From Glycomyces lechevalierae (GTDB lineage: Bacteria; Actinomycetota; Actinomycetes; Mycobacteriales; Micromonosporaceae): a stretch of DNA of 64,000 bases. The notes below the pieces were generated by a model that saw nothing but the letters and a program-made list of their open reading frames with translations, was not told the DNA's origin and ran no database searches. The stretch covers positions 62,001-126,000 of the forward strand of contig NZ_JAPZVQ010000001.1 of the NCBI RefSeq assembly GCF_027622945.1, read 5' to 3'. Below are positions 2 through 64,000 of the stretch, piece after piece. Made by a program: the position numbers and the translations under genes. Every line of letters starts with the position of its first letter. The first letter of the stretch is position 1.

Positions 2-1222
2 TTCGAGCTGCCCCGGAACGTCGAGCATGTGGCGAACGCGGCCGTGTGGGCTATCGAGCCGGTCGACGGCGGGCACCGCGTGCACCTGCGGGTGGGCCCG
101 GCCGACGGACCGGACCGGAAGGGGCGGGCCGTGGAGGCGCGGGCGCTCGTGCTCGCCACGGGCGCTTACGATCGCGCGCTGCCGTTCCCGGGCTGGGACC
201 TGCCGGGCGTGTTCACCGCCGGTGCGGCGCAGGCGATGGCGAAGGGCCAGGGCGTCGCGGTCGGCGACCGGGTCGTGGTCGGCGGGACCGGGCCGTTCCT
301 GCTGCCGGTGGCGGCCTCGCTGATCGGCGCGGGCGCGCGGGTCGTGGAGGTCGCGGAGGCGAACGCGGCGGTGACCGGATGGCTGGCGAACCCAAAGGGG
401 GCGCTGGCGGGCTGGTCGAAGACCGGTGAGCTGATGCGGTACGCGGGGACGCTGGCGCGGCACCGGGTGCCGTACCGGTCGCGCACGGCCGTGATCGAGG
501 CGCACGGCAGCGACTGCGTGGAGTCGGTGACCGTGGCGCGGCTCGACGCGCTGTGGAACCCGGTGCCGGGTTCGGAGCGGCGGCTCGAGGCGGACGCGGT
601 GGCGGTCGGGTTCGGGTTCACGCCGCAGTTGGAGCTGGCGCTGGCGGCGCGGTGCCGGGTCGAGGACGGGTTCGTGGCTGTCGATGCGGTGCAAGGGACT
701 TCGGCTCCGGGCGTGTTCGCGGCCGGGGAGTTGACGGGCATCGGCGGGGCCGAGCTGGCGGCGTCCGAGGGCGCGGTCGCGGGTGCGGCGGCGGCGAAGT
801 TCGTGGGCGCGGCGGTCGAGCCGCCGGTGCGGGCGATGGCGAAGGTGCGGTCGGGCCGGCGGTTCGCGGCGGCGCTGAACGCGGCGTACCCGGTGCGCTC
901 GGGCTGGCACGACTGGCTGCGCGACGACACGATCGTGTGCCGGTGCGAGGAGGTCACGAAGCGCGCGCTGTTCCGGGCCGTGGACGAGCGGGACGTGGGC
1001 GCGGTGCGCTCGCTCAAGCTCGTGAGCGGGGCCGGGCTGGGCCTGTGCCAGGGCCGGGTGTGCGGGCGGAACGTGGCCGAGCTGGCGGGCGTGGACGCGA
1101 CCGGGTTCGCCAAGCGGCCGATCGCGTCGCCGATCCGCTTGGCCGAACTGGCCGAGGAGGAGCCGGTGGAGTCGCCGATCGACGCGGAGGAGTCGGGCCG
1201 GGCGCTGGGCGTCGAGTACTAG
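2..1222 (+). CDS. FAD-dependent oxidoreductase with C-terminal [2Fe-2S] (BFD-like) domain, 5' end missing
   Basis: The reading frame is open to the left edge of the window, so the true start and the N-terminal FAD-binding motif lie outside; a GTG at 29 is only an internal codon candidate. What remains (about 406 residues) is a pyridine-nucleotide-disulfide oxidoreductase fold with a second nucleotide-binding stretch (VVVGGTGPFLLPVAASL) and a C-terminal BFD-like cluster domain with CRCEEV and, about 35 residues later, GLCQGRVCG, giving the Cys-x-Cys...Cys-x4-Cys pattern. This layout is that of HcnB, opine oxidase A and D-hydroxyproline dehydrogenase alpha subunits, which oxidise amino acids or imino compounds in multi-subunit complexes. 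The partner subunits would be upstream and are not visible, so the substrate cannot be assigned. Confidence 0.8.
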   Translation, partial: FELPRNVEHVANAAVWAIEPVDGGHRVHLRVGPADGPDRKGRAVEARALVLATGAYDRALPFPGWDLPGVFTAGAAQAMAKGQGVAVGDRVVVGGTGPFLLPVAASLIGAGARVVEVAEANAAVTGWLANPKGALAGWSKTGELMRYAGTLARHRVPYRSRTAVIEAHGSDCVESVTVARLDALWNPVPGSERRLEADAVAVGFGFTPQLELALAARCRVEDGFVAVDAVQGTSAPGVFAAGELTGIGGAELAASEGAVAGAAAAKFVGAAVEPPVRAMAKVRSGRRFAAALNAAYPVRSGWHDWLRDDTIVCRCEEVTKRALFRAVDERDVGAVRSLKLVSGAGLGLCQGRVCGRNVAELAGVDATGFAKRPIASPIRLAELAEEEPVESPIDAEESGRALGVEY

Positions 1223-52965: not shown

Positions 52966-53640
52966 TCAGCCGCGCGGGCGCGGATCTTCGGCCCGGCCCG
53001 CCCACCAGCCGATCGCGTGGCGGATGTGCTGGCGCATCAGGGCCTCGGCGGCGTCGGCGTCCCCGGCGGCGAGGTGGTCGAGGAGGCGGTGGTGCTCGTC
53101 GGCCGAGACGTGGAGGCGGCTCGACTCGACCATCGAGACGAGCCCGACAAGGCGGGTGCGCTCCCGCAGGTCCGCGATCGTCTCCACGAGCACGTCGTTG
53201 CCGAGCAGCGCGGTGAGTTCGAGGTGGAAGGCCTGGTCGGCGAGGAGGTAGGCCGGGAGGTCGCCCGAGCGGGCCCCGGCGACGATCGCGTCCGCCTGGG
53301 CGCGGAAGTCCGCGAGGCGCCCGGCCGGGAAGGCCCCGGCGACCCGGGCCATCGCGGGCGGTTCGAGGAGCAGCCGGATCTCCACGATGTCCTGCAGGAG
53401 CTCGTCGCTCACGGCCGTCACCCGGAAGCCCTTGTTGCGCACCGTCTCCACGAAGCCGCGCTTCTCGAGGTCGAGCATCGCCTCGCGGACTGGGGTGGCC
53501 GAGACCGCGAACCGCTCGGCGACGCGCGGGACGGTGAGCAGCGTGCCGGGCGCGAGCTCGCCGGAGATGATCGCGAGCGAGAGCATCCGGGCCACGCGCA
53601 CGCGCAGGCTCTCGCCCGGTTCCAGGCGCCGGTCGCTCAT
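52966..53640 (-). CDS. GntR-family regulator (FCD subfamily) of the peptide/arabinoside operon
   Basis: A 224-residue GntR protein. Winged helix at about 10-75 (SLAIISGELAPGTLLTVPRV, then SATPVREAMLDLEKRG), followed by an FCD effector domain of six helices (about 85-212), with potential metal ligands in AYLLADQAFHLELT and the histidines ADEHHRLLDHL. It is the last gene of the operon, overlapping the GH127 stop by ATGA. It most likely represses the operon and senses a breakdown product such as a sugar or amino acid; the operon promoter itself lies beyond the right edge. Confidence 0.9.
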   Translation of the reverse strand: MSDRRLEPGESLRVRVARMLSLAIISGELAPGTLLTVPRVAERFAVSATPVREAMLDLEKRGFVETVRNKGFRVTAVSDELLQDIVEIRLLLEPPAMARVAGAFPAGRLADFRAQADAIVAGARSGDLPAYLLADQAFHLELTALLGNDVLVETIADLRERTRLVGLVSMVESSRLHVSADEHHRLLDHLAAGDADAAEALMRQHIRHAIGWWAGRAEDPRPRG

Positions 53641-56036
53641 CGCGGGCCGTTCTTCCCGGGGATCACGAGCCGCCGCCGAGGCTCCTCGTTGCCCGCGCGG
53701 TCCGTCGCGGCGTACTCGATGACCTGGGATTCGGGGCCGATCGCGCGCACGAACGCCTCCTGGAAGGTGCCCCAGAACGTGCCCGGGCCCTCCCACTGGA
53801 TCCGCTCCACCCCGGAGACCTCGTCCGCGGCGTGGAGGGTGATCTCCCAGCTCGAGCCGAGGTCCTTCACGGTGGCGCGGGAGACCGGCGGGGCCGTGTC
53901 GACGCTGAGCTCGCGAACGGTGGTCGCAGTGCGGCCCTCGCTGTCGTGGACGCGGGCCTCGAGGTACTGCACGCCTTCGGTGTCGAGCGTGACGGGGGCC
54001 GTATAGGGCTGCCAGTCGCCTTGGCCGACACGGAGTTCGAGGCGCACGGCTTCCGCTTCGGCTTCGAGCGTGTGAAGTCGGATCGTGGGCGCGGTCGTGT
54101 ACCAGCCGGACGGGGCCGGCTCCTCCATGACCTCGATGGCGACGGCCGGCATGCCGGGCGGGACAGGGTCGAACGCGAACTCGGGCTCGCGGCTGCGGAC
54201 GTACATGTGGTACTTGGTGTCCAGGCCGGACCAGCAGGGTTCGAACTCGACGCCGTCGAGTCGCACTGTGCCCTTCGCGGCGAGCTCGGCGAGGAGTTCG
54301 GGCCCGGTCTGCTCGGTGATGACGTCGCCGTCCTCGCGGCGGCCCGCGAGCGGGAACGCCAGGGAGGTGGTCAGCTCCGAGCGGGCGAGGAGGAGCGTCG
54401 GGCCGAGGAAGAGCGCGCATTGGCGTTCGTCGTCGATCGCCGGTTCGGCGCGCAGGCGCGCGGGAGTGGTGAGGTGGAGTTCGTCGCCGGATCGCCAAGC
54501 GCGCGTGAGGGACACGTACCGGCCTGGAACGGGAGTCGCTTCGGCCGGTTCGCCGTTGAGGCGCAGTTCGAGGTCGCCCGCGGCCCAGGTCGGGACGCGG
54601 AGGTGGACGGTGCGCTCCTCGGCGGTCTCGCCTTCGAAGGCGAGCGTGATGCCTTCGCCCAGAGGGAAACCCGAGCGGAGCCGCACGCGCAGCCCGGCCT
54701 CGGCCCAGTGGAGGTCCGAGTCGATCGGGAGGTTCACGTAGAGGCCGTCGGGGCTGTGGAAGTAGATCGTGTCCTGGTACTTGACGTGGTTCTCCAGGCC
54801 CGTGCCGCCGCAGCACGTGCCCACGTTGCCGTACTCGCGGAACGCGCCCGGGTGCACCGGGAACATGTACGTGACCTCGGGACTGGTGTCCGATCGGACG
54901 GCGCGGCGCGAGCCCAGGACGTGGTTGAGGACCGTGCGCTCGTAGTAGTCCATATAGGCCGGATCGTGCGTGTGCGCGAAGAGCCGGCGGGCGAGTTTCA
55001 GCAGGTTGTAAGCCGCGCAGGTCTCGGCGTTGCGGTGGCCCACGTCCCCGGCCACGGTGTCCGGCGGGCCCCACAGCTCGCTCTCGCCGGTGCCGCCGTG
55101 GGCGTACATGCGGCCGGGCACGACCTGGTCCCAGATGCCCTGCGCCGCTTCGAGGTAGCGGGGCTCACCGGTCTGCTCGTGCTCCTCCACGTAGCCGATG
55201 AGCTGGGGCAGGTGCTGGTTGGCGTGCATGTCCGTGAGGACGTCCGTGCGCGAGGCGCCCGCTTCGAGGACGTTCTCCTGGTCGAAGAACGCGGCGGTCT
55301 CCAGGAACACGGGCTTGCGCGCGGCGGCGGCGAGGCGGGCCATGGTCTCGTTCATGCCGCCGAACTCCCCCGCGATGTAGAGCGACCACATGCGCTGGCG
55401 GCGTTCGGGATCGAGGCGGGAGAGGCGCTGATGGACCCAGTGGCCCATGGCGACGGCGATCGGCAGCGCCTGCTTGTTCCCGGTGAGCTCGTGGGCGTCG
55501 AGCAGCCCGGCCATGAGCTTGTGGCAGGTGTAGTAGGGCGCCCAGATCTCACCGTACGGGGCGAAGTCCTCGAGCCGCGAGAACTGCCATTCGCCGTAGG
55601 CCGCAAGGAAACCAGGGTGCGAGTAGCGACCGGTCGCCGCCAGGGCGGCCTGGACCTCGCCGAGGCCCATCACGAAGCCGTCCACTTTGGCCTTCAGGAC
55701 GGGGTCGTGCTCCCCCGCGGCCGCGAGGGCGAGCATGGAGAGGAAGTGCCCGGCGTAGTGGCCGCGCAGGAGGTTGGCGGTGGGGGCGTGCTCGCGGCCG
55801 GGATAGTCGGCCTCGCCCCAGGCCTGCTCGTCGGGGTGGCCGAAGTCCTCCCAGTTGCCGGGCGGGAGCGCGCCGCGCGTGTCGAGGCCGGCGTTGCGGC
55901 GGAAGACGGCGAGCAGGCGGTCGACGGGGTAGACGCGGGCGAGGTGCAGCATCTCGTCGCGGGCGCGCGCGAAGACGCTCGCACCGTCGATGCGGACGGC
56001 GCCGAGCGGGAAGGGCCGCAAGGAGGGCGCCGTCAT
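53637..56036 (-). CDS. GH127-family beta-L-arabinofuranosidase
   Basis: A 799-residue GH127 enzyme. The zinc/nucleophile site of the type enzyme HypBA1 is intact: Glu338 and Cys340 in NAETCAAYN and Cys408/Cys409 in VGTCCGGTGLENH. HypBA1 releases L-arabinofuranose from beta-1,2-linked arabino-oligosaccharides on hydroxyproline (extensin type). An (alpha/alpha)6 barrel (about 20-430) is followed by beta domains and a C-terminal Ig/OmpL47-like segment (about 640-790; LDTEGVQYLEARVHDSEG). No signal peptide is present, so it acts on material brought into the cell. It overlaps the M24 peptidase stop and the GntR start by four bases each. Confidence 0.93.
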   Translation of the reverse strand: MTAPSLRPFPLGAVRIDGASVFARARDEMLHLARVYPVDRLLAVFRRNAGLDTRGALPPGNWEDFGHPDEQAWGEADYPGREHAPTANLLRGHYAGHFLSMLALAAAGEHDPVLKAKVDGFVMGLGEVQAALAATGRYSHPGFLAAYGEWQFSRLEDFAPYGEIWAPYYTCHKLMAGLLDAHELTGNKQALPIAVAMGHWVHQRLSRLDPERRQRMWSLYIAGEFGGMNETMARLAAAARKPVFLETAAFFDQENVLEAGASRTDVLTDMHANQHLPQLIGYVEEHEQTGEPRYLEAAQGIWDQVVPGRMYAHGGTGESELWGPPDTVAGDVGHRNAETCAAYNLLKLARRLFAHTHDPAYMDYYERTVLNHVLGSRRAVRSDTSPEVTYMFPVHPGAFREYGNVGTCCGGTGLENHVKYQDTIYFHSPDGLYVNLPIDSDLHWAEAGLRVRLRSGFPLGEGITLAFEGETAEERTVHLRVPTWAAGDLELRLNGEPAEATPVPGRYVSLTRAWRSGDELHLTTPARLRAEPAIDDERQCALFLGPTLLLARSELTTSLAFPLAGRREDGDVITEQTGPELLAELAAKGTVRLDGVEFEPCWSGLDTKYHMYVRSREPEFAFDPVPPGMPAVAIEVMEEPAPSGWYTTAPTIRLHTLEAEAEAVRLELRVGQGDWQPYTAPVTLDTEGVQYLEARVHDSEGRTATTVRELSVDTAPPVSRATVKDLGSSWEITLHAADEVSGVERIQWEGPGTFWGTFQEAFVRAIGPESQVIEYAATDRAGNEEPRRRLVIPGKNGPR

Positions 56037-57490
56037 GGGGTCTCCTCGAGGCGGGCCCGGGTCCAGGCTTCGACCCCGGCGGCGTCGATCGGGAGGGCGG
56101 CGGAGAGGACTTCGGCGCCGTCCTCGGTGACGAGGAGGTCGTCTTCGAGGCGCACGCCGATGCCGCGCAGCTCCGGCGGCACGGTGAGGTCGTGGGCGTG
56201 GAAGTAGAGGCCGGGTTCGACGGTCATGACGACGCCGGGTTCGAGGTCGGCGCCCATGTACTCCTCGTATTCGGCGTGGCCGCAGTCGTGCGTGTCGAGG
56301 CCGAGGTGGTGGCCGATGCCGCAGGCGAGGTAGCGGCGGTGCTGCTGGCCCTCCGGCGAGAGGGCCTCGTCGACCGAGACGGGCAGGAGGCCCCAGTCGT
56401 GGAGGCCTTGGGCGATCACTTCCATTGCGGCGAAATGGAAGTCGAGGTACTGGACGCCGGGGCGGACCTGGGCCATGCCGGCGCGGTGGGCCTTCTCGAC
56501 GAGGTCGTGGACCTCGCGCTGCTGCGGGCTGAAGGTGCCGCTCGCCGGGAGGGTGCGGGTGACGTCGGCGGTGTAGAGGCTCTCGGCCTCCACACCCATG
56601 TCGAGCAGGAGCGCCGCGTCGGGGAGGACGGGGCCGTCGCAGCGGACCCAGTGGAGGACGGGCGCGTTGGGGCCGGAACCGACGATCGTGGTGTAGCCGG
56701 TGCCGTTGCCGTGGGTGCGGGCGTGGCGGTCGAAGGTGCCCTGGAGCCAGCGCTCGCCGAGGCCTTCGACAGCGCCGCTGCCGATGGCGCGCGGGATCTC
56801 GCGGGCGACGGCGGCGAAGCCCGTGACGGTGGCGTCGACGGCGAGGCGCATCTGCTCGATCTCCCAGGCGTCCTTGACCATGCGGAGGACGGAGAGGTGG
56901 CGGTCGAGGAGCGCGGAGGGGTCCAGGCCGTGGTCGGCGGCGAAGGTCTCGCTCGTGGTCTGGATCGTCAACGCGCCCTTGAGACTCGCGCCTTTCAACC
57001 CGTGGTCGTCGACGGCGTTGAGCGGTGCGACGTCGAGCTGGAGGGCTTCGGCCCATTCGGGGAGGCCGGGCGAGGCGCCGACCCACAGTTCGCCGTGGTT
57101 GGCGTCGCCGAAGAAGCCGGTGTCGCCGGGGCGGAAGGGCGGGGGCAGGTAGAGGCGGGCGTCGTGGCCGCCGGGGCGCGGGGTCATGACGAGGACGGCG
57201 TCCTCGGCGTGGCAGCCGGTGAGCCACACGAAGTCGCTGTCCGGGCGGAAGAGGTAGGTGTTGTCGTCGTTGCGGGTCGGGGCGGTGCCCGAGTGGACGA
57301 CGACGGTGGCGCCGGGGAGGCGTTCGCTCAGGCGGCGGCGGTGCTCGGCGGCGGCCTGCGCGGCGCCCTCGACCGGCCGCGCCGGGACGGGGTCGGTGCC
57401 CCAGCCGGAGGCGATGTGCTCGGTGAAGCCCTTGATGTCCTTGATCTTCGGGTAGCGGGTGCCCGCGTAGGGCGGCCTGGCGTCGGTCAT
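56033..57490 (-). CDS. M24B-family Xaa-Pro aminopeptidase (PepP-like)
   Basis: A 485-residue aminopeptidase P type enzyme. N-terminal AMP_N domain (about 45-180; YLFRPDSDFVWLTG) and pita-bread catalytic domain with the five metal ligands: Asp in LLLDMGVE, Asp in TADVTRT, His in GIGHHLGLD, Glu in TVEPGLY and Glu in VRLEDD. It removes an N-terminal residue that is followed by proline (or hydroxyproline). No signal peptide. Overlaps the hydrolase upstream and GH127 downstream by ATGA. Its place beside an iminopeptidase and an arabinofuranosidase points to proline-rich glycopeptide substrates. Confidence 0.92.
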   Translation of the reverse strand: MTDARPPYAGTRYPKIKDIKGFTEHIASGWGTDPVPARPVEGAAQAAAEHRRRLSERLPGATVVVHSGTAPTRNDDNTYLFRPDSDFVWLTGCHAEDAVLVMTPRPGGHDARLYLPPPFRPGDTGFFGDANHGELWVGASPGLPEWAEALQLDVAPLNAVDDHGLKGASLKGALTIQTTSETFAADHGLDPSALLDRHLSVLRMVKDAWEIEQMRLAVDATVTGFAAVAREIPRAIGSGAVEGLGERWLQGTFDRHARTHGNGTGYTTIVGSGPNAPVLHWVRCDGPVLPDAALLLDMGVEAESLYTADVTRTLPASGTFSPQQREVHDLVEKAHRAGMAQVRPGVQYLDFHFAAMEVIAQGLHDWGLLPVSVDEALSPEGQQHRRYLACGIGHHLGLDTHDCGHAEYEEYMGADLEPGVVMTVEPGLYFHAHDLTVPPELRGIGVRLEDDLLVTEDGAEVLSAALPIDAAGVEAWTRARLEETP

Positions 57491-58788
57491 CGCCGTTCTC
57501 CTCCTCGGTCGCGCACCAGCTCCCGGAGGCGGGCGAAGACCCGCTCGGCGCCGATGCCGTCGTGCTCGTACTCGTTGGTGACCCACGCCTGGGCGTTGCC
57601 GAGGCCGCGCAGGGTGTCGAGCTGCAGCCCGGAGTCGACGAACATGTCGTCGAAGTAGACGGCTGCGGCCACGGGGACCTCGTTGGCGGCCAGGCGTTCG
57701 GGGTCGAGGATCGGGCTCCACTCCGCGCGGGCGGCGAGGGCGTGGACGGCGGGCGCGAAGCCGCGCAGGAGCCGGACCTCCTCGAACATCCACGGGAACG
57801 CCATCTCGCCGGTGAACGGGAGGGGGCGGACCTCCTCGTCGAACTCGGGGCGGCGGTCGCGCTCCCGTTGGGCGGCCCAGGCGGTGGGACCGTTGGGTCC
57901 GTCGCCGTAGATGGACTCCTGCAGGGTCCAGAACAGGGGGTTCCCGGCGGAGGAGGTGCGGGCGAGGACGCCGGCGAGGAAGCCCTCGGAGAGGCGGTCG
58001 CCGCGGATGAAGGCGTCCTCGACGAGCCAGTGCATCCGCTCGAAGCCGGGCTTCATGCCGAAGTCGATGCCGAGGGACTGGAAGCGGCGCACGGTGAGCA
58101 CGTCGCCGTCCGGGAGCAGGACCGGTTCGGCCGCAAGGCGGTCGGCGATCCTGGCGACCTGCTCCACGTCGTGCGGGTAGCGGCGGTAGTACTCGGCGGT
58201 CTTGGCGGCGACGCGGTCGAAGGTGCGGCGGTAGACCTCCTCGGCACTCATCGGGTTGCCGGGGATGCCGCCGCACACGTACGCGGCGGTGAGCGCTTCG
58301 GGCGCGTGCGAGAGGTAGGCGAGGGTGAGCCAGCCGCCGTAGCTCTGCGCGAGCGTCGCCCACCGCCGTCCGCTGTAGACGGTCTGGCGGACGTGCTCGA
58401 GGTCGCGGACGATCGAGTCGGCCCTGAAGCGGGACAAGTGGTCCGCTCCGGTCTCGGCGTCCATTTCGGAGACGATTTGCGCGTCGAGCGGGGTGCTGCG
58501 GCCGGTGCCTCGCTGGTCGACCAGGACGATCCGGTAGTGCCGCAGCGCTTCCGCTATCCAGCCGCCCGGTTCGAGCGGGCGGGGGTTCGCCCCGCCTGGG
58601 CCGCCCTGGAGGTAGGTGACGAGCGGCAGGTCGTCCCCGCGCTTGTCCGGGTCCACGAGCTCGCGCACGAAGACCTCGATCGCGCCGGATTCGGGGTGCC
58701 ACCAGTCGAGCGGGACCGGGACGCGGCGCTCGCGCACCCACATGCCCGGCAGTTGGTATTCGACGTATTCGACACCGGGGTCCCTCAC
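57487..58788 (-). CDS. alpha/beta hydrolase, proline iminopeptidase-like (S33)
   Basis: A 433-residue S33-type hydrolase. The oxyanion motif is YLQGGPGGANP, LVDQRGTGRS follows, and the nucleophile Ser lies in LAQSYGGWLTL; a large cap domain is in the middle, and NEYEHDGIGAERV near the C-terminus holds the likely His. Enzymes with this build remove N-terminal proline from peptides. GTG 58788 (AGAGGAAG upstream) overlaps the upstream ATPase stop; an in-frame codon at 58845 would run deep into that gene. It gives the Pro-releasing step that complements the M24 enzyme encoded next. Confidence 0.87.
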   Translation of the reverse strand: MRDPGVEYVEYQLPGMWVRERRVPVPLDWWHPESGAIEVFVRELVDPDKRGDDLPLVTYLQGGPGGANPRPLEPGGWIAEALRHYRIVLVDQRGTGRSTPLDAQIVSEMDAETGADHLSRFRADSIVRDLEHVRQTVYSGRRWATLAQSYGGWLTLAYLSHAPEALTAAYVCGGIPGNPMSAEEVYRRTFDRVAAKTAEYYRRYPHDVEQVARIADRLAAEPVLLPDGDVLTVRRFQSLGIDFGMKPGFERMHWLVEDAFIRGDRLSEGFLAGVLARTSSAGNPLFWTLQESIYGDGPNGPTAWAAQRERDRRPEFDEEVRPLPFTGEMAFPWMFEEVRLLRGFAPAVHALAARAEWSPILDPERLAANEVPVAAAVYFDDMFVDSGLQLDTLRGLGNAQAWVTNEYEHDGIGAERVFARLRELVRDRGGERR

Positions 58789-59642
58789 AAGGCTTCCTCT
58801 CGCTCGCGGCGGGCCTGCTCGTTGCGCCGCCGCGCGGCGTCCCACTCGGGGCGGATGCGCGGCACGGCGGCCAGGAGCTTCTTCGTGTACTCGTGCTGCG
58901 GCGCACCGAAGACCGCGTCCCGGTCGCCGGACTCGACGATGCGGCCGCCGTTCATCACCGCCACCCGGGTCGCGATCTGGCGGACCACCGCGAGGTCGTG
59001 CGCGATGAACAGATAGCTGAACCCCTCCTCGTCCTGGAGGCGGCGCAGCAGGTTGATGACCTGCGCCTGCACCGAGACGTCCAGGGCCGAGACCGCCTCG
59101 TCGGCGATGATCAGCTTGGGGGACACCGCGAGCGCGCGGGCGATGCCGATGCGCTGGGCCTGCCCGCCCGAGAACTGGGCGGGGAAGCGGTTCGCGTGGT
59201 CGGGGTTCAGGCCGACGCGCTCGAGGAGCGCGCCGGTGAAGACGCGCGCGCCGCCGGGGATCGGGCGGCGCTGGTAGGCGAGCGGCGCGGTGACGATCCG
59301 CTCCACCGTGTGCTTCGGGTTCAGCGACGAGTACGGGTCCTGGAAGACCATCTGCACTTCACTGCGGAACGCGTGCAGGGCCTTCCCGGAGAGCGCGTGG
59401 ACCTCGCGGCCGTCGAACTCGATCGTGCCGCTCGTGGTGTCGATGAGCCGCGCGATCAGGCGCGCGGTGGTGGACTTGCCCGAACCGGACTCGCCCACGA
59501 GTGCGAGCGTCTCGCCCTTGGCGACCTCGAGCGAGACGTCGTCGACGGCGCGGAAGCGGCCGGAGCGGCCCAGGAGGCCGCCGCCGGAGACGGTGAACTC
59601 CTTGACCAGGTTCCGCGCGCGCAGCAGGGTTTCGCCGGTCAT
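58785..59642 (-). CDS. oppF: ABC oligopeptide transporter ATP-binding protein (OppF type)
   Basis: A 285-residue ATPase with Walker A GESGSGKST, Q-loop VFQDPYSSLNP, signature FSGGQAQRI, Walker B LIIADEAVSALD and switch IAHDLA. The C-terminal tail is rich in Arg and Glu (RRRNEQARREREEAL) and lacks the usual Cys-containing oligo_HPY extension. It overlaps the preceding OppD-type gene by ATGA. The pair drives the importer made by the genes upstream. Confidence 0.92.
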   Translation of the reverse strand: MTGETLLRARNLVKEFTVSGGGLLGRSGRFRAVDDVSLEVAKGETLALVGESGSGKSTTARLIARLIDTTSGTIEFDGREVHALSGKALHAFRSEVQMVFQDPYSSLNPKHTVERIVTAPLAYQRRPIPGGARVFTGALLERVGLNPDHANRFPAQFSGGQAQRIGIARALAVSPKLIIADEAVSALDVSVQAQVINLLRRLQDEEGFSYLFIAHDLAVVRQIATRVAVMNGGRIVESGDRDAVFGAPQHEYTKKLLAAVPRIRPEWDAARRRNEQARREREEAL

Positions 59643-60481
59643 CGGCCCTCCTCGGTGGACACGGTGCGGAGCAGCCCGATCTCGTCGTCGATGCGCGGCA
59701 CCGCGTCGAGCAGCATCCGCGTGTACGGCTCCTGCGGGTCCGTGAAGATCCGCTCGGCCGGGCCCTGCTCGACGAGGTCGCCGTCGCGCATGACGACGAT
59801 GTGGTCGGTGACCTCGCTGACGACGGCGAGGTCGTGGGTGATGAGGATGAGCCCGGCCCCGGTGTCCGCGCGGATCTCGGCCAGGAGGTCGAGGATCTGG
59901 GCCTGCACGGTCACATCGAGGGCGGTGGTGGGCTCGTCCGCGATGATGAGCTCGGGCTCCATGCTCAGCGTCATCGCGATCATGACGCGCTGGCGCATGC
60001 CGCCGGAGAACTGGTGCGGGTAGTGGTCGACCCTTCGGGCGGCGTCGCTGATGTGGACGCGTTCCATCGCCTCGATCGCCACATTGCGGGCCTGGCGGCG
60101 GGTCACGCCGGTGCGGTGCGAGCGGTAGGCCTCCATGATCTGCGTCCCGACCGTGTAGTACGGGTTCAGGGAGGAGAGCGGGTCCTGGAAGATCATCGCG
60201 ATCCGGTCGCCCCGGACCGAGCGCATGGCGCGTTCGGGCAGGGCCGTGAGCTCGGTGCCGTCGAACTCGATGGAGCCGGTGCGCTTGGCGCCCTTGGGGA
60301 GCAGGCCCATGACGGCGAGGCTCGTCATGGACTTGCCGGAGCCGGACTCGCCGACGATGCCGAGCGCGCCGCCCCGGGCCACGTCGAAGTCGAGGGACTT
60401 GACGACCTCGTTGGGGCCATGGATGTTCGGAAAGCCGACGGTGAGCATCCGCACCCGCAGCAGTGTGTCCGAAATGGTCAT
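59639..60481 (-). CDS. oppD: ABC oligopeptide transporter ATP-binding protein (OppD type)
   Basis: A 280-residue ATPase with Walker A GESGSGKSM, Q-loop IFQDPLSSLNP, signature FSGGMRQRV, Walker B LIIADEPTTALD and switch ITHDLA. Both ends overlap neighbours by ATGA. The C-terminal extension is short: YTRMLLDAVPRIDDE and then the end, without a cysteine cluster. Confidence 0.93.
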   Translation of the reverse strand: MTISDTLLRVRMLTVGFPNIHGPNEVVKSLDFDVARGGALGIVGESGSGKSMTSLAVMGLLPKGAKRTGSIEFDGTELTALPERAMRSVRGDRIAMIFQDPLSSLNPYYTVGTQIMEAYRSHRTGVTRRQARNVAIEAMERVHISDAARRVDHYPHQFSGGMRQRVMIAMTLSMEPELIIADEPTTALDVTVQAQILDLLAEIRADTGAGLILITHDLAVVSEVTDHIVVMRDGDLVEQGPAERIFTDPQEPYTRMLLDAVPRIDDEIGLLRTVSTEEGR

Positions 60482-61482
60482 GCCGAGCTCCCCACTCGCA
60501 CTCGCGGGTCGATGGCCGTGTACAGGAGGTCGACCACCATGTTGCCGATGACGACCAGGAAGGCCGCGAGCAGCGTGACGCCCATGATGACCGGCTGGTC
60601 GTTCTTGGTGATCGAGTCCGCGGCCATCTTGCCGATGCCGTTGAGCCCGAACACGGTCTCGGTGATGAGGGCGCCGCCGAGCAGGCCGGCGAAGTCCATG
60701 CCGAAGATCGTGACGATCGGCGTGAGCGCCGGCCGCAGCGCGTGCCGCCGCCACACCAGGCCGGGGCTGAGGCCCTTGGCGCGGGCGGTGCGCACGTAGT
60801 TCTCCTGCAGCGTCTCGATCACGTTCGCGCGCGTGAGTCTGGTGTAGACGGCCGCCATGCCGATGGCGAGCACGATCCAGGGCATCAGGAAGTTCTGGAA
60901 CCACTGGAACGGGTCGTCCGAGAAGGCGACGGCCTGCGGGAACGGCAGCCAGCCGAGGGTGACGACCAGCAGGAACTGGAGCGAGAGCGCCAGCACGTAG
61001 TTCGGGATCGACATGCCGGTGAGCGTGAGTCCCGCAATGAAGCGGTCCGCGAACCTGCCTTCCTTGACGGCGCTGAGCAGGCCGCCCGCGACGCCGGCGA
61101 GGAGCCAGAGGACGGCCGCGCCCACGGCGACGGTGGCGGACACCGGGAGGCGCTGCACGATCATGTCCGTGACGGCCTGGCTCGACTGGAACGAGTAGCC
61201 GAGGCACGGTGCGGCGCAGTCGATCGCGTTCGGCCCCGTACCGTAGGTGCGGCCCGCGAAGAGCCCGGCCAGGAACGTCCCGAACTGGGTCCAGAACGGC
61301 TGGTCGATGCCGAGGTTGGCGCGGATCTGGTCGATCGCCTCCGGCGTGCAGTTCTTGCCGCAGATCTGCACGGCCGGGTCCGGCGAGAGCACGAAGAAGA
61401 TCACGAAGGTGAACAGGCACACCAGGAACAGCACGATGATCATGCCGAGAACCCGGTTGGCGACGAAGCGAAGCGGGATCAT
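60478..61482 (-). CDS. oppB: ABC oligopeptide transporter permease (OppB type)
   Basis: A 334-residue permease with about six membrane helices. The first is VLGMIIVLFLVCLFTFVIFF. An extracellular loop has four cysteines (ICGKNCTPEA and IDCAAPCLG) that may form disulfides, which is not common in DppB/OppB. The EAA-like loop is YVRTARAKGLSPGLVWRRHA. Start ATG 61482 overlaps the upstream permease stop by four bases, with GGGAGGGG upstream. Confidence 0.92.
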   Translation of the reverse strand: MIPLRFVANRVLGMIIVLFLVCLFTFVIFFVLSPDPAVQICGKNCTPEAIDQIRANLGIDQPFWTQFGTFLAGLFAGRTYGTGPNAIDCAAPCLGYSFQSSQAVTDMIVQRLPVSATVAVGAAVLWLLAGVAGGLLSAVKEGRFADRFIAGLTLTGMSIPNYVLALSLQFLLVVTLGWLPFPQAVAFSDDPFQWFQNFLMPWIVLAIGMAAVYTRLTRANVIETLQENYVRTARAKGLSPGLVWRRHALRPALTPIVTIFGMDFAGLLGGALITETVFGLNGIGKMAADSITKNDQPVIMGVTLLAAFLVVIGNMVVDLLYTAIDPRVRVGSSA

Positions 61483-62447
61483 GCCATCCCCTCCCCCAAA
61501 AGTCTGCGGATGCGGTCGCCGAGCACCGTGAACGAGAGCACGAGCAGGAACAGGAAGGCCCCCGGGATGAGGAAGTACGCCGGGTCGACGGCGTACCAGG
61601 GCACGGAGCTCGCGATCATCTGGCCCCACGACGGGGTCGGCGGGACGACGCCCACGCCGAGGAACGACAGGCCCGCCTCGGTGCCCACGTAGCCGGGCAC
61701 GGCGAGGGTGGTCATGACGATGATCGTGGAGGCGAGGTTCGGCAGGATCTCCTTGAAGATGATCTGGGCGCTGGTCGCGCCCGAGGCTTTCGCGGCCTCC
61801 ACGAACTCCCTCTCCTTGAGCGACATGGTCTGTCCCCGCACGATGCGGGCGAGGTACGGCCAGCCGAAGAACGAGATCACCAGCACCAGCAGGAACTGGC
61901 GGTTCTCGGCGGGCAGGGCCGAGAGCACCGCGATCATGAAGATGAGCGCCGGGAAGGCCATGAGGAACTCCATGACGCGGGAGATCACCATGTCCACGCG
62001 CCCGCCGAAGTACCCGGCGATGAGCCCGAAGACCACGCCGAGGAAGGTCGTCAGCAGCGTCGCCGAGATCGCGATGAGCATCGAGACCCTGGCGCCGTAG
62101 ACGATCCGGGCGAAGAGGTCCCGCCCGTTCCCGGGCTCGACGCCGAACCAGTGGTCGGCGCCCATGCCTCCCGCCGCGCCGAGCGGGATGCCGCCCAGGT
62201 TCGGGTCGACGGCGTCCTGGTCGAATTCGAGGGGGCCGTAGCCGCTGATCTTGACCAGCAGCGGCGCGGCGACGGCCATCAGGATGATGAGCAGGATGTA
62301 GACGCCGCAGGCGACGGCCGCGCGGTCGCGGAGGAAGGCCCGGGCGAGGCGCCGCCCGGAGGCGGGCGGCGCGGCCGGAGCGCCGTCGCGCCCCGCCTCG
62401 CCGCCCGCGGCGCCTTCGACTTCGAGCTCGGTCGGAGTGAAGGTCAT
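61479..62447 (-). CDS. oppC: ABC oligopeptide transporter permease (OppC type)
   Basis: A 322-residue permease. A 35-residue Gly/Ala-rich hydrophilic start precedes an OppC_N helix (AVACGVYILLIILMAVAAPL). About six helices follow, with the EAA-like loop FVEAAKASGATSAQIIFKEI and LPNLASTIIV. It forms the pore with the OppB-type protein. The start is six bases after the binding protein stop. Confidence 0.92.
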   Translation of the reverse strand: MTFTPTELEVEGAAGGEAGRDGAPAAPPASGRRLARAFLRDRAAVACGVYILLIILMAVAAPLLVKISGYGPLEFDQDAVDPNLGGIPLGAAGGMGADHWFGVEPGNGRDLFARIVYGARVSMLIAISATLLTTFLGVVFGLIAGYFGGRVDMVISRVMEFLMAFPALIFMIAVLSALPAENRQFLLVLVISFFGWPYLARIVRGQTMSLKEREFVEAAKASGATSAQIIFKEILPNLASTIIVMTTLAVPGYVGTEAGLSFLGVGVVPPTPSWGQMIASSVPWYAVDPAYFLIPGAFLFLLVLSFTVLGDRIRRLLGEGMA

Positions 62448-62453
62448 CGGTGA

Positions 62454-64000
62454 TCAGCCCCGGGACGGGTCGCTCAGGCCGATGATCGTCAGGTCCGTCA
62501 TGCTCGTGTTCGGGATGTACCCGGCGATGTTCTCGCCCGGCAGGAACACGCTCGGCTCCTGCAGCAGCGGCACCATCGGGGCCAGCGCCATGACCTCCTC
62601 GTCGAACTCGCCCCACTCGACGTTGGCGGCCTCGAGGTCGGTCATCGCGCGGATCTCGTCGATGCGGGCGTTGAGGCCCGGGTCGTTGATCTGCGCGATG
62701 TTGGTGTTGCCCTTCTCGGTGATCACGCGGCCGTCGACCAGCGGCGGGACCATCGTGCTCGAGCTGGAGGCCCAGTCCGGGCACCAGCCGGTGATCGCGG
62801 CGTCGTGCATCTGCGAGGGCGTGCCGATGGTCTCGTAGAAGGTGGAGGTGTCGATGACGTTGAGCTGCACGTCCACGTCGATCTTGGCGAGGGCCTGCTG
62901 GATGGACTCGGCCTGCGCCTGCATGATCGGGTTGGAGCGGATGTCGAGGGTGAACGAGAAGCCGTCCCCGAGGCCTACGGACTCGAGCAGCTCCTTGGCC
63001 TTCTCCGGATCGCCGTTGTCGCCTTCGCTCGGGTAGAGGTCGAAGTCCTTGTGGCCGTTCACCGCGTTCGGGATGATCGTGGTGGCCGGGAGGGCGAGCT
63101 GGTTGCCGCCCGAGGCGGTCTGGAGCGAGGTGCGGTCGACGGCGTAGTTCATCGCCTGGCGCACTTCGAGCTTGTCGAACGGGGCCGCGGTGGTGTCCAT
63201 GCCCATGTAGGTGACGCAGTAGGCCTCGGCGCTGATGACGCGGTCCTGCAGCTCGGGGCTCTGGAGCCGCGCGAGGGTGGCCGGCTGGATCTTGCCGGAG
63301 ATGGCGTTGACGTCGGAGCCCTGGCCGGCGAGCAGGCGCTCGTCGATCGTGGCGCCTTCGAGGCCGATCTCGAACTCCCACGCGTCCGGGTAGGCCTTGC
63401 GCACGTCGTCGGTGGCCTGGTCCCAGTACTCGTTGCGCACCAGCTTGATCGAGCTGCCGGGCGTGTACGAGTCGAGGGTGTAGGGGCCGGAGGCGATGAC
63501 GTCCTTGATGAACTCGTCGCCCGCGCCGGTGCCGACCGGGAACGGCACGGCGTTCACCTGGGCCACGACGTTGTCGAACTCGGGGAACGGGGCCTTGAGG
63601 TGGAAGACGATGGTCTGCGCGTCGGGCGTCTCGATGCCCGGGTGCTCACCGGACTGGTACGGGCCCTTGTAGTCCTCGGGGGCGTCGATCGTGTTCTTGA
63701 GCCAGGGCGAGCCGATGCCGATCTCCGGGTCCCAGGCCCGGGAGATGCCGAACTTCAGCTCGGCCGAGGTGATGGGGTCGCCGTTGTCGAACTTGAGGCC
63801 CTCTTTGAGGGTGTAGGTCCAGGTGAGGCCGTCTTCCGAAGGGGTGCCGAGGCCTTCGGCCATGTCGGGGACGACCGCGTTCGGGTCGTCGGCGTCACCG
63901 GCGGCCTGCATGGTGAGGCCGCGGTAGATGAGGCGGTAGAAGGCGTTGACGCCGCCGTCCCAGCCGCGCGCGGGGTCGAGGTACGAGAAGTCGGCGTTCT
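62454..64000 (-). CDS. oppA: ABC oligopeptide transporter substrate-binding protein, N-terminus beyond window
   Basis: The frame is open to the right edge; an ATG at 63911 lies inside the domain, since conserved family sequence (DFSYLDPARGWDGGVNAFYR) precedes it. The visible 514 residues are a family 5 solute-binding protein with LTWTYTLKEGLKFDNGDPIT, KFGISRAWDPEIGIG and, near the end, WCPDWASSSSTMVPPL. It would capture the peptide or glycopeptide ligand outside the cell. Signal peptide and any lipobox are not visible. It is the first visible gene of the operon that ends with the GntR regulator. Confidence 0.92.
   Translation of the reverse strand, partial: NADFSYLDPARGWDGGVNAFYRLIYRGLTMQAAGDADDPNAVVPDMAEGLGTPSEDGLTWTYTLKEGLKFDNGDPITSAELKFGISRAWDPEIGIGSPWLKNTIDAPEDYKGPYQSGEHPGIETPDAQTIVFHLKAPFPEFDNVVAQVNAVPFPVGTGAGDEFIKDVIASGPYTLDSYTPGSSIKLVRNEYWDQATDDVRKAYPDAWEFEIGLEGATIDERLLAGQGSDVNAISGKIQPATLARLQSPELQDRVISAEAYCVTYMGMDTTAAPFDKLEVRQAMNYAVDRTSLQTASGGNQLALPATTIIPNAVNGHKDFDLYPSEGDNGDPEKAKELLESVGLGDGFSFTLDIRSNPIMQAQAESIQQALAKIDVDVQLNVIDTSTFYETIGTPSQMHDAAITGWCPDWASSSSTMVPPLVDGRVITEKGNTNIAQINDPGLNARIDEIRAMTDLEAANVEWGEFDEEVMALAPMVPLLQEPSVFLPGENIAGYIPNTSMTDLTIIGLSDPSRG

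Follow-up and report, generated by a model that had tools for sequence, protein, structure and literature searches.

Within a 64,000-nt stretch of the Glycomyces lechevalierae genome (the window; C1:62001-126000 of a 5.6-Mb draft genome), nine minus-strand genes form an operon that joins a peptide importer of the Opp/Dpp type to two peptidases, a predicted β-L-arabinofuranosidase and a GntR/FCD regulator. We propose that this operon is, with good probability, the part of a plant hydroxyproline-glycoprotein utilisation system that handles uptake and digestion inside the cell. Judged from gene content, the most likely cargo would be arabinosylated hydroxyproline (Hyp) peptides or glyco-amino acids from plant Hyp-rich glycoproteins (HRGPs); the arabinose would be removed and the peptide cut inside the cell, and the Hyp oxidised.

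The genes run from 64145 down to 52966 in the order SBP5 (solute-binding protein, family 5), OppC, OppB, OppD, OppF, S33, M24, PF07944 glycosidase and GntR/FCD (Table 1). Neighbouring genes overlap by 4 bases at seven of the eight junctions, the pattern expected of one translationally coupled operon; a 6-base gap separates SBP5 and OppC. As read from the genome sequence, the SBP5 gene starts 145 bases beyond the window end, and the operon therefore continues past it. A preliminary description of this DNA had placed the operon within 52966-64000. All its genes were found where it put them, with Pfam families that agree, and the tight overlaps were borne out; only the upstream limit had to be moved. 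A search for Rfam elements in the window returned 0 matches.

Table 1. Genes of the operon and the partial gene at the opposite end of the window (window coordinates).
Feature	Position	Strand	Evidence
Lipoprotein solute-binding protein, SBP family 5	62454..64000 (gene to 64145)	-	PF00496 1.5e-71; best PDB match OppA2, 2wok, 3.7e-83
OppC-type permease	61479..62447	-	PF00528, OppC_N
OppB-type permease	60478..61482	-	PF00528, BPD_transp_1_N
OppD-type ATPase	59639..60481	-	ABC_tran and oligo_HPY
OppF-type ATPase	58785..59642	-	ABC_tran and oligo_HPY
S33-like alpha/beta hydrolase, prolyl-aminopeptidase type	57487..58788	-	PDB 8jgm/8jgn 6e-91; motif residues S149, D380/381, H409
M24 peptidase, Xaa-Pro aminopeptidase type with AMP_N	56033..57490	-	PF00557 1.3e-43, PF05195 1e-18; PDB aminopeptidase P 1e-48
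GH146-type β-L-arabinofuranosidase (predicted, cytosolic), C-terminal Ig/OmpL47-like extension	53637..56036	-	PF07944 1.8e-80; OmpL47-type domain
GntR/FCD transcriptional regulator	52966..53640	-	PF00392, PF07729; orthologue adjoins Hyp cassette in relatives
3' part of PyrRed-type subunit of D-hydroxyproline-dehydrogenase-like oxidoreductase	2..1222	+	43% identity to Microbacterium Hyp-cassette subunit

The operon is conserved across actinobacterial families

Six peptide patterns taken from the glycosidase were used to scan 84,980 species genomes, an approach that finds close relatives. The scan recovered 64 loci, comprising 41 from Actinobacteria (L041-L080 and L096) and 23 from Clostridia and Bacteroidota. 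Among named species, the closest matches to the glycosidase were from Glycomyces (84-85% identity). All seven partner genes lay on the same strand and in the window's order in 34 of the 41 actinobacterial loci: 14 from Glycomyces, seven from Microbacterium, four from Promicromonospora, three from Actinoplanes, two from Kineosporia, and one each from Symbioplanes, Actinosynnema, Pseudoclavibacter and a Ruaniaceae bacterium. The Pseudoclavibacter locus (L054) has a GH36 gene inserted within the otherwise conserved order. Such conservation speaks against a chance assembly of genes. The preliminary description had named a lack of conservation of the gene set in relatives as refuting; this check was made, and the gene set passed it.

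Seven actinobacterial loci were incomplete. Three of these (L058, L068 and L075) lie at contig ends, and two others come from Nesterenkonia (L060 and L066). The S33 gene was not detected in L069, and S33, OppC, OppB and OppD were not found in L071. The 23 loci from Clostridia and Bacteroidota gave no S33 match, and an M24 match in L097 and L100 alone, at 24% identity.

Hydroxyproline catabolic genes accompany the operon

Beside the operon in relatives we found genes of the DHDPS, proline racemase/4-hydroxyproline epimerase, DAO, 2Fe-2S, pyridine-nucleotide oxidoreductase (PyrRed) and aldehyde dehydrogenase (ALDH) families, together with a GntR gene. These are the components of a trans-4-Hyp catabolic cassette: an epimerase, a DAO/2Fe-2S/PyrRed dehydrogenase, a DHDPS-family deaminase and an ALDH. 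The 4HypE model scored 353 bits on the Microbacterium protein, below its cut-off of 376. Of the 34 complete loci, 27 had the epimerase gene or cassette adjoining the operon, whole in 26 and cut by a contig end in L059. It lay within the fetched locus in 17 instances (10 Glycomyces and seven Microbacterium, L059 among the latter), and further upstream, on a contig as long as that of the locus and with an SBP5 match in the same stretch, in 10 (L052, L065, L067, L070, L072, L073, L074, L076, L078 and L096).

The cassette occurred in at least four arrangements. It is downstream as GntR-DAO-...-ALDH in Glycomyces and downstream as DHDPS-epimerase-...-ALDH in Microbacterium. In Actinoplanes, Symbioplanes, Kineosporia and Actinosynnema it lies upstream and on the operon's strand, ordered DAO-...-ALDH-GntR; the Ruaniaceae genome has GntR in first place. 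In Promicromonospora it is upstream and divergent. In Glycomyces, DAO/2Fe-2S/PyrRed-type genes come after the operon's GntR gene in 10 loci. In six of the remaining seven complete loci the epimerase gene was on another contig (L041, L042, L044, L048, L054 and L080), with one DHDPS-like gene still adjoining the operon in L080; the seventh, L077, was left out of the epimerase check. In a 150-genome family sample, PF05544 was matched (E<=1e-60) in 14 of 14 operon genomes versus 58 of 136 others, a count that does not represent 14 independent events because the operon genomes are related.

The cassette of the window's genome is split into two clusters, both on C1. One holds the DAO, 2Fe-2S and PyrRed genes (C1:60408-63222), the first two just outside the window (C1:60408-61852), and the first 1.2 kb of the window are therefore the end of this unit. 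The other (C1:230130-234608) holds the ALDH, DHDPS and epimerase genes with a GntR gene, and its epimerase keeps both catalytic-type cysteines, C91 and C259.

The operon and the epimerase genes share an operator-like motif

The 17-mer TATGTGAYATRTTACTG precedes both the SBP5 gene (C1:126248) and the DHDPS-epimerase genes (C1:231822), and these are its only perfect matches in 5.6 Mb. With up to three mismatches, 19 matches were found versus 0 for the reversed control; 14 sites had three mismatches, and 10 of these fall within 174-290 kb on C1. Since only a few neighbours of the three-mismatch sites were annotated, we claim no regulon beyond the two perfect sites. No perfect site preceded DAO in the window's genome. 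ATGTCAC, the core of the HypR motif of Streptomyces coelicolor (PMC6608401), is present on the other strand of the site that precedes the epimerase operon.

In Glycomyces, 13 of 14 loci had a related 12-mer (at most one mismatch) in the 450 bases preceding the SBP5 match. Where the cassette is adjacent in this genus, the 12-mer was also present between GntR and DAO (10 loci), within 250 bases of the DAO match in nine. We then scanned 49 loci, some of which are one genome entered twice, with a pattern picked after viewing some of the promoters. A hit before SBP5 was found in 24 loci, giving 49 hits versus 0.05 expected from shuffled upstream stretches; whole loci gave 102 hits, and many of the 53 outside the 450 bases before SBP5 were before DAO. 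This pattern had no hit in the Microbacterium, Promicromonospora, Kineosporia, Actinosynnema, Actinoplanes, Symbioplanes, Ruaniaceae, Pseudoclavibacter, G006 and G084 loci. Microbacterium has a different palindrome before SBP5, and looser related sequences were seen in others.

The neighbouring Hyp genes and the motif common to the epimerase operon constitute an independent line of support for the substrate that the preliminary description had suggested. From these features we infer that the operon would act on arabinosylated Hyp.

A few kb past the epimerase cluster, from C1:237322 onward (L127:15322-20000), lie a second family-5 binding protein gene and Opp-like genes, and a three-mismatch operator-like site precedes this second set.

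The glycosidase belongs to the GH146 type

A Pfam scan of the 799-aa glycosidase found PF07944 and Glyco_hydro127M domains. The Glu338, Cys340, Cys408 and Cys409 of the preliminary description were exact, and together with E320 they were invariant in 29 of 29 rows of our alignment A1, window included (two non-operon rows, L120 and L122, were left out because of a wrong frame). Aligned with GH146 PDB sequences, the protein has the Cys3-Glu zinc site and an acid/base Glu, the role of E320 being assigned by alignment only. This zinc/Cys site is common to GH127 and GH146 (PMC10850190).

The earlier label of HypBA1-type GH127 had to be given up: the window glycosidase is GH146-type by sequence, tree and predicted fold. 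The best sequence matches in the PDB were the GH146 enzymes BT0349 (209 bits, 1e-60) and Bll3HypBA1 (161 bits, 4e-46), with 67 bits for the GH127 enzyme Ara127N; HypBA1 itself (3wkw) was not matched at E<=0.001. Nor was PF20737 (Glyco_hydro127C) at that threshold, and the protein has CCGG where the HypBA1 type has CCPP. An AlphaFold2 model (mean pLDDT, the predicted local distance difference test, 84) gave its six best Foldseek matches to GH146 structures, with values from 6.5e-35 to 2.6e-31 and 1.1e-31 among them; no GH127-side structure scored better than 2.6e-22. In a tree of 41 rows, 23 actinobacterial GH146 rows from the genome scan and the window formed one group (support 100/100), which contains two Nesterenkonia rows that lack Opp partners; four GH127 rows were separated from all others (100/100). 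Of the seven other PF07944 loci in the window's genome, L002, L004 and L006 entered the tree, where the branch of L002 (G000_L002) is very long; L001, L003 and L007 were removed by the frame/motif filter, and L008 was not entered.

The new label helps the proposed substrate, since Ara-Hyp is what the GH146 enzyme XeHypBA1 mainly acts on (PMC6085000; classed GH146 in PMC10850190). Another GH146 enzyme, Bll4HypBA1, is reported active on Araf-β-Hyp (PMC10850190). No signal peptide was apparent by eye (no predictor run) on the glycosidase, M24 or S33 proteins. An L-arabinose isomerase match is present in the window's genome.

The paralogous PF07944 gene at L008 (G000:C2:92082-94613) was matched as two pieces with an in-frame TAG, and its matches in the same-genus genomes G108, G124, G085 and G135 have one internal TAG each.

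A GH127 enzyme takes the place of GH146 in some operons

We also examined the genomic setting of the S33 gene. Matches at E<=1e-60 in 93 of 394 class genomes indicate that this gene is not special to the operon. Twelve S33-centred regions were fetched from the upper part of the list formed by the 92 other matching genomes, skipping G419 and G552. S33 alone was rejected as an operon marker, given this frequency and the lack of any other operon gene in seven of the 12 regions. Four regions (L188, L190, L194 and L195) contained the same SBP5-OppCBDF-S33-M24 operon with a GH127 gene and without GH146. The whole Hyp cassette follows it in L194 and L195, and a DHDPS-like gene in L190; in L188 only a GntR gene was within the stretch. 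All four GH127 proteins have SETC and CCPPN motifs, and the one tested matched the BT3674 structure at 1e-99 and HypBA1 at 2e-85. A fifth region, L189, has S33 and M24 together, with GH36 nearby and without this Opp set. GH127 was also seen beside GH146: in L054, GH36, GH146 and GH127 stand together after M24, and in Promicromonospora iranensis (L067) a GH127 gene adjoins the operon. Two β-L-arabinofuranosidase families in the same operon place are what would be expected if β-arabinofuranosyl-hydroxyproline were the substrate.

These regions also bear on the idea that the operon encodes a general importer of Pro/Hyp peptides, for example from collagen or unglycosylated HRGPs, and that the glycosidase acts on an unrelated β-arabinofuranoside. 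The 34 complete loci provide no evidence here, since they were found with GH146 as the query and hold it by construction. In the S33-centred search, M24 stood beside S33 in five of 12 regions and a PF07944 enzyme (GH127) was in the operon in four of those five, which argues against an unrelated glycosidase; moreover, collagen Hyp is not known to carry arabinose. We regard a general importer as very improbable, even considering that S33 homologues are common outside the operon and that in S. coelicolor a collagenase gene, too, is under the regulator of a comparable cassette (PMC6608401).

A GH36 α-galactosidase gene (L009:16413-18548, window coordinates 64413-66548) is divergent from the window operon across a common promoter region. 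GH36 is likewise divergent in L041, L042, L044 and L047, lies inside the operon in L054, adjoins it in L190 and is near the S33-M24 pair in L189; the proteins are 45-51% identical across lineages. GH36 is a common family, and extensins carry Ser-linked galactose, which we suggest this enzyme would suit. After the GH36 gene come LacI regulator, sugar binding protein and GH78 genes, as read from the sequence (not Pfam-scanned). Some family-5 binding proteins import oligosaccharides, and these neighbours would also fit a system serving β-arabinofuranosides of arabinan, arabinogalactan protein (AGP) or rhamnogalacturonan, with the Opp-type transporter carrying oligosaccharides. Activity of the GH146 enzyme Bll3HypBA1 on AGP and arabinan (PMC10850190) points the same way. 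The recurrent partners are instead two proline-type peptidases and Hyp catabolic genes, and we regard this alternative as very improbable.

Peptidases and importer

The S33 protein, an Abhydrolase_1 member with a Ser-Asp-His triad by motif, matched Arabidopsis AT3g61540 (8jgm/8jgn), which we take to be a prolyl aminopeptidase, with residues 11-413 of 433 covered. Its match to three curated prolyl-aminopeptidase models was weak and did not reach their cut-offs. The near whole-length match to a solved protein and the triad agree with the earlier reading as a proline iminopeptidase-like hydrolase. The M24 protein fits its earlier naming as an Xaa-Pro aminopeptidase-like enzyme: it has the AMP_N and Peptidase_M24 pair, is near aminopeptidase P in the PDB, and has ligand motifs at 294, 307, 391, 422 and 445, presumably the five metal ligands D, D, H, E and E. 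A count of the S33, M24 and GH146 motifs across loci missed rows represented by a short or incomplete domain fragment, and we draw nothing from it. One family-5 binding protein, two permeases and two ATPases make up an Opp/Dpp-type importer set in conserved order. The binding protein has a lipobox, LTAC, and its closest solved structure is OppA2 of the clavulanic acid cluster (2wok).

Peptidases like these M24 and S33 proteins remove one residue from the N-terminus, and Opp systems commonly import short peptides. Both properties would suit a smaller cargo, a single Ara(n)-Hyp or a very short glycosylated di- or tripeptide freed outside by proteases, with the peptidases needed for residual X-Hyp bonds only. 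The preference of the GH146 enzyme XeHypBA1 for Ara-Hyp (PMC6085000) is in keeping with this. A free glyco-amino acid, however, would have no need of the two peptidases that accompany the importer in 34 of 41 loci, and we consider it unlikely that the cargo is so restricted.

A model for import and intracellular digestion

In the model that we favour, digestion of arabinosylated Hyp glycopeptides, HRGP or extensin fragments bearing β-L-arabinofuranosyl-hydroxyproline would be captured by the family-5 lipoprotein and imported by OppBCDF. The GH146 enzyme, predicted to be cytosolic from its family and the lack of an apparent signal peptide, would strip β-L-Araf off Hyp by a Zn-Cys3-Glu mechanism, with Cys408 or Cys409 as nucleophile and Glu320 as the likely acid/base. 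The M24 aminopeptidase P and S33 prolyl aminopeptidase would then cleave Xaa-Hyp and Hyp-Xaa bonds. The genes present predict that the released trans-4-Hyp would be converted to 2-oxoglutarate, first by the epimerase and then by D-Hyp dehydrogenase (DAO/2Fe-2S/PyrRed), a deaminase of the DHDPS family and an aldehyde dehydrogenase. Given the motif at both sites, the GntR/FCD regulator may bind at and govern both the operon and the Hyp cassette.

Several observations weigh against this model. The 17-mer was derived from both of its sites, so its perfect match there is by construction and the information lies in the lack of a third perfect match. In the window's genome the cassette stands apart from the operon, as it does in the six loci with the epimerase on another contig. 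The spread is thin: the other 393 of 394 class-sample genomes had no GH146 match above 52% identity. GH146 also occurs in other company, without Opp and M24 partners in the two Nesterenkonia loci (L060 and L066), without Opp or peptidase neighbours in three of three relatives (L191-L193; 51-52% identity in the class sample, 47-50% in the comparison of loci), and without the operon in seven of seven family-sample relatives (L120-L126; 47-49% in that sample, 43-45% in the comparison of loci), where some gave matches to OppD or SBP5 that did not exceed 30% identity. The S33 family is broad, and its gene stands alone in most of the regions fetched. The likeness to OppA2 tells nothing of the binding protein's ligand or of glycans. 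Finally, GH146 is not confined to Hyp: Bll3HypBA1 is β1,3-specific, and BT0349 works on arabinan-derived oligosaccharides (PMC10850190).

Extended to Actinobacteria at large, the model describes a route present in many families, though thinly, by which whole arabinosylated (extensin-type) glycopeptides would be imported and dismantled inside. GH146 or GH127 would remove Hyp-linked arabinose, GH36 in some lineages (the window clade, Pseudoclavibacter and L190) would remove Ser-linked galactose, and the co-regulated cassette would burn the Hyp; arabinosylated plant peptide hormones could be cargo too. For this wider claim we see the case as evenly balanced.

Comparison with known systems

GH146 enzymes, Opp importers and the Hyp cassette are each known already; what may be new is their coupling. 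In the one open-access library searched, we found no description of GH146, Opp importer, peptidases and Hyp cassette together, and no paper pairing an arabinofuranosidase with hydroxyproline epimerase.

The HRGP route of Bifidobacterium longum (HypAA, HypBA2, HypBA1 and an ABC transporter; Bll4HypBA1) also deals with β-L-Araf on Hyp through GH127/GH146 cysteine glycosidases (PMC6085000, PMC10850190), and its HypBA1 is likewise intracellular (PMC7263609). There, however, an extracellular β-L-arabinobiosidase frees arabino-oligosaccharide that is imported as sugar, whereas in the system described here a predicted cytosolic β-arabinofuranosidase is coupled with an importer of the Opp type, a pair of peptidases and Hyp catabolism. 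In Xanthomonas euvesicatoria (XeHypAA/XeHypBA2/XeHypBA1), the GH146 enzyme XeHypBA1 (PMC10850190) similarly takes Ara off Ara-Hyp, but has an N-terminal signal peptide (PMC6085000); the window enzyme has none apparent and is encoded in an importer operon.

The HypR regulon of S. coelicolor (SCO6289-6293) resembles the cassette described here in placing DAO, 2Fe-2S, oxidoreductase, DHDPS and Pro_racemase genes under a GntR-FCD repressor, and in its motif core; it is tied to a collagenase gene and not to a β-arabinofuranosidase with an Opp importer (PMC6608401). In that species, L-Hyp as sole carbon source supports growth of the wild type and of the regulator mutant (PMC6608401). The neighbourhood network of the proline racemase superfamily likewise places 4HypE with DAO, DHDPS, ALDH and transport systems, but in its main text GH127 and DUF1680 are absent and 'peptidase' appears in one place, for a Bacilli cluster (PMC4113996). 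In an in-silico account of HRGP degradation in Latescibacteria, extensin is proposed to be handled by GH127, peptidases and peptide importers; the account is a genome-wide list in which arabinose is released and imported as monomer, with no operon or Hyp-catabolic linkage in the text available (PMC4454575).

HRGPs are a large and resistant share of plant cell walls, and the known bacterial routes remove their sugars outside the cell and say little on the fate of the peptide and its hydroxyproline. If the model is right, a single conserved unit for glycopeptide import, cytosolic deglycosylation, peptide cleavage and Hyp catabolism would close that gap and provide a genetic marker for extensin-eating actinobacteria. 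GH146 or GH127 with M24 and S33 would also be a small enzyme set of likely defined specificity for arabinosylated Hyp peptides, useful in glycoproteomics.

Related loci with other neighbours

Other gene combinations were seen around these enzymes. In L187, an S33 homologue 72% identical to the operon's has no other operon gene in 18 kb. GH127-like and GH146-like genes stand side by side on the same strand in L192 and L193, with no Opp or peptidase matches. In Nesterenkonia (L066:4563-14118 and L060:1173-11475), a major-facilitator transporter gene, identified in L066 from sequence reading only, and an amidohydrolase gene near GH146 replace Opp and M24, and L066 has a Hyp cassette close to GH146. 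The Defluviitaleaceae metagenome-assembled genomes L090 and L084 have a GH146 gene near Opp genes. In L090, the one annotated (L090:6051-18438), the genes after GH146 encode GH4, OppF, DUF885, a binding protein of family 5 and OppB/C/D, a set that could possibly represent an independent glycopeptide importer in Clostridia.

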